The position numbers and the translations under genes were made by a program. Below are positions 1-2,505 of a DNA stretch of 44,794 bases, piece by piece. Numbering within the stretch: position 1 is the stretch's first letter; the number at the start of each line of letters is the position of its first letter. The stretch comes from Acidimicrobiia bacterium. Its GTDB lineage: Bacteria; Actinomycetota; Acidimicrobiia; Spongiisociales; ZC4RG35. The notes beneath the pieces were generated by a model that saw only the letters and a program-made list of their open reading frames with translations, did no database searches and was not told where the DNA came from. The stretch spans positions 1 to 44,794 of the forward strand of contig WFOA01000146.1 of NCBI GenBank assembly GCA_015488325.1, read 5' to 3'.

Positions 1-407
1 GCCCCCGGATCGGGCCCGTAGCGTTCCTCGGTGTCGGGCTGGACGAGGGTGAACGTCCGGGTGGCGACCTGGTAGGGGCCGCTCGGCTCGGGCATGGACG
101 GGACGGGGAGCGCCGCCGGAAGCACCAGCATCAGCGCGACCCCGACGATGCCCAGGGCCCCACGTCGGAACCGCCGGTACCCCCGTACCCGGCGGTCCTC
201 CCAGCCGATGTCGTCGATCGCCAGCGCCACCACGCCGAGGTGGAGGGGGACGAGCTGCCAGCGGAATCCTTCGAACAGCCATTGGGCGAGATCGAGGACG
301 ACCACCAGCACGGCCATCCAACCGCGCCGCCACCGCCGACCGGTGACCACCGGCCAGTAGATGGCACCGACCGCGACGGCGGCGAGGACCGATTCCAGGG
401 GACGCAT
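1..407 (-). CDS. PAF-acetylhydrolase-like alpha/beta hydrolase, N-terminal part (truncated by window edge)
   Basis: The reading frame opens at ATG 407 and runs off the left edge, so only about 135 N-terminal residues are visible. They form a run of hydrophobic membrane segments (an IYWPVV stretch, a VLVVVLDLAQWLF stretch and an ALGIVGVALMLVLPAALP stretch) followed by a periplasmic-looking PSGPYQVATRTFTLV motif. That motif is typical of the start of the hydrolase domain in bacterial platelet-activating-factor acetylhydrolase-like proteins. The catalytic serine, aspartate and histidine would lie outside the window, so the enzyme class is an inference from the N-terminus only. A membrane-anchored esterase or lipase is the best guess. 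The next gene upstream (selenoredoxin) reads the same way and is 78 bases away. Confidence 0.5.
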   Translation of the reverse strand, partial: MRPLESVLAAVAVGAIYWPVVTGRRWRRGWMAVLVVVLDLAQWLFEGFRWQLVPLHLGVVALAIDDIGWEDRRVRGYRRFRRGALGIVGVALMLVLPAALPVPSMPEPSGPYQVATRTFTLVQPDTEERYGPDPG

Positions 408-485: not shown

Positions 486-1010
486 TCAGGTGGAGGCGAC
501 GAGCTCGTCGAGGAGGGCCCGGACCTCCTGTTCGGGTCGTGATCCGGCCCAGGCGGCGACGATCCGCTTGTCGGCGTCGATCACCACCGTCACCGGCTGA
601 CCGGGGATGCCGTAGGCGGCGAAGACCTCTTCACGCTCGTCCAGACCCCACATCACGTTGCCCGACGGGAGGAGCTCCGCCGCCACCTCGGCGGTCCGTT
701 CGAAGGTGCCTCTCCAGGCGGGCGCCACGAAGGCCACCCGGTCCCCGTACTCGGTGGAGAGACGGTCGACGACGGGCAACTCCCGTCGACAGGTCCCTCA
801 CCATTCGGCCCAGAAGATCATGTAGACCGGCCGGGTCTCGTCGGCGAGGGTGAAGGTCCCGCCTTCGCCCAACGCCAAGGTGAAGTCGGGTGCCGTGGGC
901 TGCTCACCGGCCGTGTCGGCGGGTGACAGCGACGCCGCGTCAGGGGTCGGTGACCCGCCACAGGCGGCGGCGACGAGGGCGACGGCGGCGGCGATGACGA
1001 GACGACGCAT
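486..1010 (-). CDS. Predicted selenocysteine-containing thioredoxin-fold lipoprotein (TGA readthrough)
   Basis: The frame from ATG 1010 to the stop at 486 is interrupted by one in-frame TGA at 798-800. Both sides join into one complete TlpA/redoxin-type protein of 174 residues. Residues 1-18 are a lipoprotein signal ending in a lipobox (LVAAAC). The redox loop reads FWAEW-U-GTCRRELP, so the TGA (codon 71) occupies exactly the first cysteine of the usual C-x-x-C site and gives UGTC. The cis-proline segment GIPGQPVTVVID follows. Immediately after the TGA the mRNA can fold a hairpin of the bacterial SECIS type. The family acts as an extracytoplasmic thiol-disulfide reductase. TGA is the normal stop elsewhere in the window, so code reassignment is excluded. 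A TTG nine bases upstream is possible, but ATG 1010 fits the signal peptide and a TAGACT box 8 bases away. The selenocysteine machinery (selA/B/C/D) is not in this window. A sequencing error or pseudogene is the alternative. Confidence 0.8.
765..790 (-). promoter_or_regulatory. Candidate bacterial SECIS element
   Basis: Just downstream of the in-frame UGA, the transcript has a perfect 6-bp stem GACGGG/CCCGUC (787-782 with 776-771) closing a five-base loop AGUUG. It is extended by an outer GUC/GAC pairing (790-788 with 767-765) with a 3-base bulge. The loop starts 17 bases after the UGA, has G at its second position and contains GU, which matches the known minimal rules for bacterial SECIS elements read by SelB. 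The hairpin lies within the coding sequence, as expected in bacteria. Confidence 0.65.
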
Positions 1011-1038: not shown

Positions 1039-1476
1039 CTATCGGGGGGCGACGTGACGGCGACATCGTCCCACCAGGGCGAAGTGGGTGGAGTCCACCT
1101 GGTATCCGTAGCGGCGCTCCAACGCCGCCGTCAGCTCGCGAACCTCCTCACGGGGGACGTCCACCGTCTGGCCGCAGACCTCACAGACGAGATGATGATG
1201 GTCGTCGGCGCCGCTGAGATGGACGACGGAGGGCCCGTGGCCGAGGTGGACGTGGTGCAGCAGGCCCGCCTGGTCGAGGGCGTCGAGGGTCCGGTAGACG
1301 GTGGACAGGTCGATGGACCGTCCCGCCACCTCTTCGGCCCGGACCCGCAGCTCGGCGGCGGTGAGATGGGAGGCGTGGGCGGCGGCGAGGACAGTACACA
1401 GGGCCCGCCGGGGAGAGGTCACCCGCAGCCCGGCCGAGCGGAGCGCGGCGACGAGTTCGTCTGCGCTCACGTGCAC
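1039..1476 (-). CDS. Fur-family metal-responsive transcription regulator
   Basis: This is a 145-residue protein of normal Fur length. An N-terminal winged helix (residues 5-85, with the DLSTVYRTLDAL recognition segment near 56-67) precedes the metal-binding dimerisation domain. That domain contains the DDHHHLVCEVCG signature (H93-H95, C98, C101) and a distal H131. The second structural zinc pair is C138-x2-H141 instead of the usual cysteine pair. It starts at GTG 1476 (a second GTG two codons on is possible), 6 bases after the trpD stop, with GGGAGGG inside the end of trpD as ribosome site, so it is probably co-transcribed with trpD. Whether it senses Fe, Zn, Mn or peroxide cannot be told. 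The neighbouring redoxin makes a redox or metal stress role plausible. Confidence 0.85.
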   Translation of the reverse strand: MHVSADELVAALRSAGLRVTSPRRALCTVLAAAHASHLTAAELRVRAEEVAGRSIDLSTVYRTLDALDQAGLLHHVHLGHGPSVVHLSGADDHHHLVCEVCGQTVDVPREEVRELTAALERRYGYQVDSTHFALVGRCRRHVAPR

Positions 1477-1482
1477 CGGTCT

Positions 1483-2505
1483 TCAACCCTCCCGGAGTCG
1501 CCGGCTCCGCTCCACGACCTGGTCCAGGACCCGGCGGGCGGCACCCGAGTCGATGGATTCGGCGGCGAGCTCCACCCCTTCGACGAACCCTTCGGCCAGA
1601 CCCGCCGCCACGAGGGCCGGCGCGGCGTTGACGAGGGCGACGTCGCGGCGGGGGCCGGGAGCGCCGTCGAGGATCTCGGTGAGGATGGCCGCGTTGGTCT
1701 CGGCGTCCCCGCCGACCAGGTCCTCACGCCGGGCACGGGCGACGCCGAAGTCTTCGGGGGTGAACTCGGCGTGGGTGATCTCCCCATCCCGGAGGCGATA
1801 GATGAAGGTGGGTCCGGTCGTGGTCACCTCGTCGAGGCCGTCTTCGCCGTAGTAGACGAACGCGTATTCCGATCCCAGCCTCGCCAGGACGCCGATCATC
1901 CGCTCGGCCATCGCCGGATCGGAGACCCCGATCGCCTGGCGGGTCGCCCCCGCCGGGTTGGCGAGCGGCCCGAGGAAGTTGAACACCGTGGGGATGCCCA
2001 GCTCGCGCCGGACCGGTGCCGCATGCTTCATCGCCGGGTGGTACTGGGGAGCGAAGAAGAAGCCGAACCCGACGTCGCGGACCAGTTGGGCCGTCGCCTC
2101 GGGCGCCAGGTCGATGGCGACCCCCAGGGCCTCCAGGACGTCGGCGGACCCGCACCGCGACGACGCCGACCGGTTCCCGTGCTTGGCCACCCGGGCTCCT
2201 GCACCGGCGGCGATGAAGGCGGCGGTGGTGGAGATGTTGAACGTCCCCGAGCCGTCCCCGCCGGTACCGGCGGTGTCCACCACCGGCACACCGACGTCGA
2301 CGGCGACGGCGGCGGCCCGCATCGCCTCCACCAGACCGGTCATCTCCTCGACCGTCTCACCTTTGATGCGGAGGGCGACGATGAACGCCGCCGTCTGGGC
2401 GGCGGAGGCGTCTCCGTTCATCACCGCCGTCATTGCCGCACGGGCTTCGTCGCGGGTGAGGTCGGCTCCGGCGGCGACCCGGCCGAGGATCTTGGGCCAT
2501 TGCAT
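1483..2505 (-). CDS. trpD: Anthranilate phosphoribosyltransferase
   Basis: This 340-residue cytoplasmic enzyme transfers the phosphoribosyl group of PRPP to anthranilate in tryptophan synthesis. It has the family's glycine-rich PRPP loop DTAGTGGDGSGTFNIST (about residues 78-94), the KHGNRSASSRCGSADVLEALG segment and FNFLGPLANP. All are hallmark TrpD motifs, and the length is standard. It starts at ATG 2505 with a consensus TACAAT box 9 bases upstream. It stands apart from the other trp genes and is followed closely by the Fur-family gene, an arrangement seen in many actinobacteria. Confidence 0.95.
   Translation of the reverse strand: MQWPKILGRVAAGADLTRDEARAAMTAVMNGDASAAQTAAFIVALRIKGETVEEMTGLVEAMRAAAVAVDVGVPVVDTAGTGGDGSGTFNISTTAAFIAAGAGARVAKHGNRSASSRCGSADVLEALGVAIDLAPEATAQLVRDVGFGFFFAPQYHPAMKHAAPVRRELGIPTVFNFLGPLANPAGATRQAIGVSDPAMAERMIGVLARLGSEYAFVYYGEDGLDEVTTTGPTFIYRLRDGEITHAEFTPEDFGVARARREDLVGGDAETNAAILTEILDGAPGPRRDVALVNAAPALVAAGLAEGFVEGVELAAESIDSGAARRVLDQVVERSRRLREG

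Follow-up and report, generated by a model that had tools for sequence, protein, structure and literature searches.

Codon 71 of a lipoprotein gene in an Acidimicrobiia bacterium is, very probably, a UGA decoded as selenocysteine (Sec) under the guidance of a SECIS element, in what would be a lipid-anchored, extracytoplasmic disulfide reductase of the ResA/TlpA type that is re-reduced by a CcdA/DsbD-type protein. The gene lies in the window analysed here, a stretch of 44,794 nucleotides. It runs from 1010 to 486 on the minus strand, the strand having been left unstated in the preliminary description of this DNA, and its product has 174 residues, one of them Sec (U71). A plus-strand reading of the same interval was tried and yields no sensible protein.

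486–1010, minus strand: Sec TlpA/ResA-like thioredoxin-fold lipoprotein gene, predicted from readthrough translation, TGA homologues, Pfam and an AlphaFold model
798–800, minus strand: predicted Sec codon TGA (U71), opening the UGTC active site, from the sequence and the aligned codon in homologues
954–1010, minus strand: predicted N-terminal lipoprotein signal MRRLVIAAAVALVAAAC-GG, residue 17 being the lipidated Cys, from the sequence and lipobox pattern

The frame is open on both sides of codon 71 (...MIFWAEW-U-GTCRRELPVVD...) and ends at a second TGA, an ordinary stop at 488–486. As the preliminary description had claimed, the in-frame TGA takes the place of the first Cys of a CxxC motif, its flanks are in frame and conserved, and the cis-Pro stretch (YGIPGQPVTVVI) is present. 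The lipoprotein signal that it reported is there too. The lipobox reads VALVAAAC-GG, and we predict a lipoprotein from the signal peptide and lipobox Cys (VAAAC-GG). By a strict regular expression, 78 of the 87 homologues have a lipobox N-terminal to the domain, and several of the others visibly do as well. Pfam matches above curated cut-offs were to Redoxin (1.6e-12), AhpC-TSA and Thioredoxin; none of the anti-phage defence families searched gave a match.

Homologues and the identity of codon 71

With identical stretches merged, we collected 87 distinct homologous genes. Aligned codon 71 was TGA in 81, which come from seven families of the order and show a recurrence far above chance, TGC in five and TGT in one, so that the position holds Sec or Cys, and no other residue, in all 87; this is the alternation that the preliminary description had looked for. 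The TGA homologues share about 40–70% identity with the Sec lipoprotein, and the protein is conserved on either side of the TGA. A gene with a single internal TGA was found in most of 60 relatives searched.

A profile search of 246 Acidimicrobiia genomes showed the gene to be widespread within its own order, in families f1–f6 and f8. The exceptions within the order were family f7, where there was no clear copy, and f4, where one genome only (G238) had a copy. Outside the order, that search had no hits at 1e-20 in other Acidimicrobiia, and among 396 genomes of the phylum those outside the order had distant matches only. Some distant TlpA-like matches elsewhere in the phylum report an open-frame TGA of their own, either a Sec site or the end of the frame (G318:C134:2329-2718, G358:C18:127116-127499, G285:C27:18904-19287 and G256:C20:265911-266297). 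Named database records for these genes are Acidimicrobiia or actinobacterial metagenome-assembled genomes. Tandem paralogues of the Sec gene, two or three in number, were noted in five genomes of one genus-level group (G010, G023, G028, G030 and G033; loci L168–L172); each has a TGA and a hairpin, and some have a very long Thr/Pro-rich linker between lipobox and thioredoxin domain.

Readings of the TGA other than Sec were also considered. Decoding of UGA as a different amino acid (Trp or Cys), or its reassignment genome-wide, has very little probability. It shares with our reading the premise that UGA is somehow decoded, but UGA is an ordinary stop in this same gene and in many homologues, on which ground genome-wide reassignment was rejected; moreover, the sel genes are present and track the TGA state (see below), and Cys is the sole alternative residue at the position. 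An error of sequencing or assembly, with TGC or TGT the true codon of an ordinary CxxC thioredoxin-fold lipoprotein, could be imagined because the source genome (G000) is a fragmented draft (162 contigs, 98% complete) and TGA is one base from TGC. It is refuted by the homologues, 81 different genes with TGA here that come from numerous separate assemblies, and both the covariation of the hairpin and the presence of the Sec machinery also contradict it. We give it practically no credence; the concern in the preliminary description that the TGA might be an assembly artefact is thereby settled. Just as negligible is the idea that this is a pseudogene, or that translation stops at codon 70, where standard gene callers would cut the gene short, since about 100 residues past the TGA are conserved (C74, E77, W121 and P139 included) and in a pseudogene this TGA would not have persisted throughout an order.

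SECIS hairpin and codon constraint

Sec insertion at codon 71 gains further support from a predicted SECIS directly behind the UGA, which the preliminary description had omitted.

770–788, minus strand: predicted SECIS apical hairpin, 7-bp stem CGACGGG / CCCGUCG, loop AGUUG (777–781), from folding, covariation and codon bias

The loop is 16 nt downstream of the UGA. The 52 nt at and after the UGA (752–803) have a folding energy of -28.6 kcal/mol (z -3.05), and the 25 nt of the hairpin one of -13.7 kcal/mol. The hairpin agrees with the bacterial SECIS criteria of PMC13188914. In 24 sequences hand-chosen for diversity, 17 stem cells had changed on both sides, compared with 4.9 in shuffles, and the covariation score of the stem was reached by none of 500 shuffles, a control that breaks relatedness. 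RNAalifold placed the hairpin in a slightly shifted register; we chose the 7-bp register over it because pairing collapses when the partners slide by 1–3 columns. Standard pairs made up 91% of stem cells in the 80 distinct Sec stretches versus 50% in the six Cys genes.

Codon choice beneath the stem follows the hairpin. Leu at U+7 was encoded by TTG or TTA in 75 of 80 Sec genes, two codons that account for 14.3% of Leu in the remainder of these genes (binomial p 5e-57), and in none of the six Cys genes. CGG encoded Arg at U+5 in 77/80 Sec genes versus a 35% background, and CCC encoded Pro at U+8 in 74/80 versus 41%. The p values, that of the Fisher test below included, count related sequences as independent and so overstate significance; the effect nonetheless covers seven families. 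Codons beneath the hairpin are thus constrained more than the protein alone requires, and a rare-codon bias absent in Cys genes is what should be expected of a SECIS that is selected and then freed upon Sec loss. In the divergent tandem copies L066, L071 and L072 the hairpin is rebuilt using a Gln codon (CGGCAGTTGCCG), so these copies replace the Glu that is otherwise a conserved residue behind the active site.

Sec machinery and Sec/Cys switching

All four genes of the Sec pathway that the preliminary description had asked for were found in the source genome: tRNA-Sec (selC; 75.7 bits, with an agreeing ARAGORN call), selA (364.7 bits) adjoining selB (339.9 bits) on contig C25, and selD (395.6 bits). 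The selD gene (L018, G000:C55:6594-7517) has its own in-frame TGA at the classical position (HGAGUACKL), and the genome therefore has at least two Sec genes. SelA was above cut-off in 177 of the 246 sampled Acidimicrobiia genomes; because this is some 72%, selenium use in the class looks common, and it is largely undescribed. SelA-positive genomes include some of ∼1 Mb (family f12), and many genomes have two SelA matches.

Within the order, the machinery goes with the codon. The selA gene was present in 62 of 63 TGA genomes and in one of the five Cys-only genomes (Fisher p 3e-5). The lone TGA genome without selA, G217, is 90% complete and has a tRNA-Sec of 68.4 bits. Four Cys-only genomes (G008, G022, G080 and G231) have neither selA nor tRNA-Sec, and the fifth, G027, has both; a Cys form in a genome that kept the machinery means that Sec is dispensable for function.

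A maximum-likelihood tree requires at least four Sec/Cys changes, each forced by well-supported branches. Sec is likely the ancestral state, because nearly all branches carry it; the tree is rooted at its midpoint only, and we therefore infer the direction of change. One Cys row, L080, has a very long branch; its genome holds a TGA copy as well, and L080 may represent a distinct paralogue. The changes, mostly accompanied by loss of the machinery, make a clean natural experiment for asking what a thioredoxin fold gains from Sec.

Fold and proposed mechanism

An AlphaFold2 model from 35 sequences had a pLDDT of 87.7, exceeding 90 across most of the domain. Its best solved structural matches were to Bacillus ResA (Z 21.4, rmsd 1.5 Å over 136 residues). 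Residues invariant in the 35 homologues include W67, A68, E69, W70, U/C71, C74, E77, P79, W121 and P139. E77 lies three residues past the second active-site Cys, in what we take to be the place of ResA Glu80, and the structural matches include ResA E80Q. The modelled fold, the Pfam matches, the UxxC motif and the cis-Pro P139 place the protein in the broad TlpA/ResA-like class of thioredoxin folds.

We propose the following mechanism. SelB and tRNA-Sec would insert Sec at the UGA of codon 71, steered by the SECIS directly behind it, and the product would be exported and tethered by a lipid to the outside of the membrane, with a predicted thioredoxin fold of the ResA/TlpA type. At the UxxC site the selenolate of Sec would then attack disulfides of extracytoplasmic proteins, presumably in the reductase direction; Cys74 would resolve the mixed selenenylsulfide; and a membrane protein of the CcdA/DsbD type, as putative donor, would re-reduce the site. 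The surface-anchored reductase role is suggested by the lipobox and the modelled fold. DsbD_TM/CcdA-like genes occur in the source genome, so a plausible electron donor is available, encoded away from the Sec lipoprotein gene. One lies on contig C123, where one of the genome's two CcmF copies is within about 3 kb of it and of a TlpA-like match.

Gene neighbourhood and candidate clients

The neighbours in the window share the orientation of the Sec lipoprotein gene.

1039–1476, minus strand: Fur-family regulator, directly upstream (Pfam FUR 5.2e-25)
1483–2505, minus strand: trpD (anthranilate phosphoribosyltransferase, named from sequence; 340-aa ORF), upstream
3–407, minus strand: start of a PAF-acetylhydrolase-like alpha/beta hydrolase, downstream (135-aa ORF, 3' open at the contig end)

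We compared 79 loci, whose flanks vary in length so that all neighbour counts are lower bounds. A Fur-family gene was directly upstream in 14 (this window included), trpD was upstream in 48, and a PAF-acetylhydrolase-like gene was downstream in 27 (cluster representative, Pfam PAF-AH_p_II 1e-20). Genes for cytochrome c maturation (ccm) were downstream on the opposite strand: CcmG-like in 28, CcmF in 18, CcmH in 17 and CcmE in 8; roughly one locus in three has a ccm operon beside the gene. A prolipoprotein diacylglyceryl transferase-like gene (Pfam LGT) was adjacent and convergent at 14 loci (L128–L160).

Most likely the protein reduces disulfides outside the cytoplasm with electrons from CcdA/DsbD; for its clients we can name candidates. 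One tentative candidate is general repair of surface thiols after oxidative damage, for instance through a methionine sulfoxide reductase. Pneumococcal Etrx1 and Etrx2 act in this way, reducing surface MsrAB (PMC3914529); Etrx2 is a lipoprotein of the same fold (Z 18.3), and a Fur-family regulator adjoins the gene in part of the order, but the conserved neighbours include no recognisable msr gene.

Cytochrome c maturation, the other candidate, we regard as unlikely. Here the Sec lipoprotein would act as a selenium-containing ResA/CcmG, maintaining CcmH or the haem-binding thiols of apocytochrome in reduced form. The adjoining convergent ccm operon is suggestive, as are ResA as nearest fold and E77 at the presumed Glu80 position. 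However, the operon runs on the other strand and is absent from the fetched flank at many loci, and a client does not follow from likeness of fold; synteny supports this client weakly, because the operon encodes its own CxxC CcmG-like protein. Broader still, and doubtful, is the proposal that Acidimicrobiia have an order-wide, ancestrally Sec-dependent reductase for assembly of cytochrome c (or of haem-copper oxidase), with repeated escape from Sec to Cys tied to loss of the whole machinery. If it were true, maturation of the respiratory chain in Acidimicrobiia would be selenium-dependent.

Comparison with known systems

The extracytoplasmic disulfide reductase that we favour most resembles ResA of Bacillus subtilis (PDB 2f9s, 1st9 and 1su9) in its fold, its membrane-anchored extracytoplasmic topology, an active-site pair two residues apart, and a Glu three residues past the second Cys. 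It differs in having Sec for the first Cys and a lipid anchor, and identity is 22%. It scored 49.3 bits against the NCBIfam ResA model (PRK03147 subfamily), where the cut-off is 170; it probably works like ResA but stands outside the curated ResA family. Pneumococcal Etrx1 and Etrx2 share the lipid anchor and the TlpA-type thioredoxin fold (Z about 18); unlike the Sec lipoprotein they have a Cys-only active site, and they come from another phylum with about 26% identity. CcmG/DsbE has a similar fold (Z about 18), and the CcmG-like protein often encoded next door is 31% identical to the Sec lipoprotein but Cys-only; against DsbE/CcmG TIGR00385 the score was 30 bits (cut-off 123). The model for a WAxxUGC ResA-like selenoprotein, NF041054 (cut-off 300 bits), gave 25.9, the motif here being UGTC and not UGC. 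No curated NCBIfam model matched the Sec lipoprotein at its own cut-off.

The preliminary description overstated the scarcity of reported selenoproteins in actinobacteria: a 2006 survey ranked Actinobacteria within the top three phyla by selenoprotein family richness (PMC1794560). Among the papers searched we found none tying Acidimicrobiia to selenoproteins, and the present family, strongly supported, is an addition to that class. Symbiobacterium, which contributed a large share of the 2006 Actinobacteria count, has since been reassigned to Firmicutes.

More than 110 prokaryotic selenoprotein families have been catalogued, mostly with thioredoxin folds (PMC13188914). Table 1 of that catalogue lists a 'Redoxin family protein' (PF08534, UxxC), a 'Thiol-disulfide isomerase-like protein' (cd02966, UxxC) and a 'UGC-containing TlpA', computationally predicted and of the same fold class as the Sec lipoprotein, which shares UxxC with the first two. 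Each family is listed with a single accession and without its lineage, and the entries are likened here by fold class and motif rather than by sequence. Because similar families are catalogued, scores fall below the NCBIfam cut-offs, and the literature searched names no Acidimicrobiia selenoprotein, we file the Sec lipoprotein as a new, lineage-specific member among the already catalogued UxxC TlpA-like selenoproteins, as compared by their descriptions.
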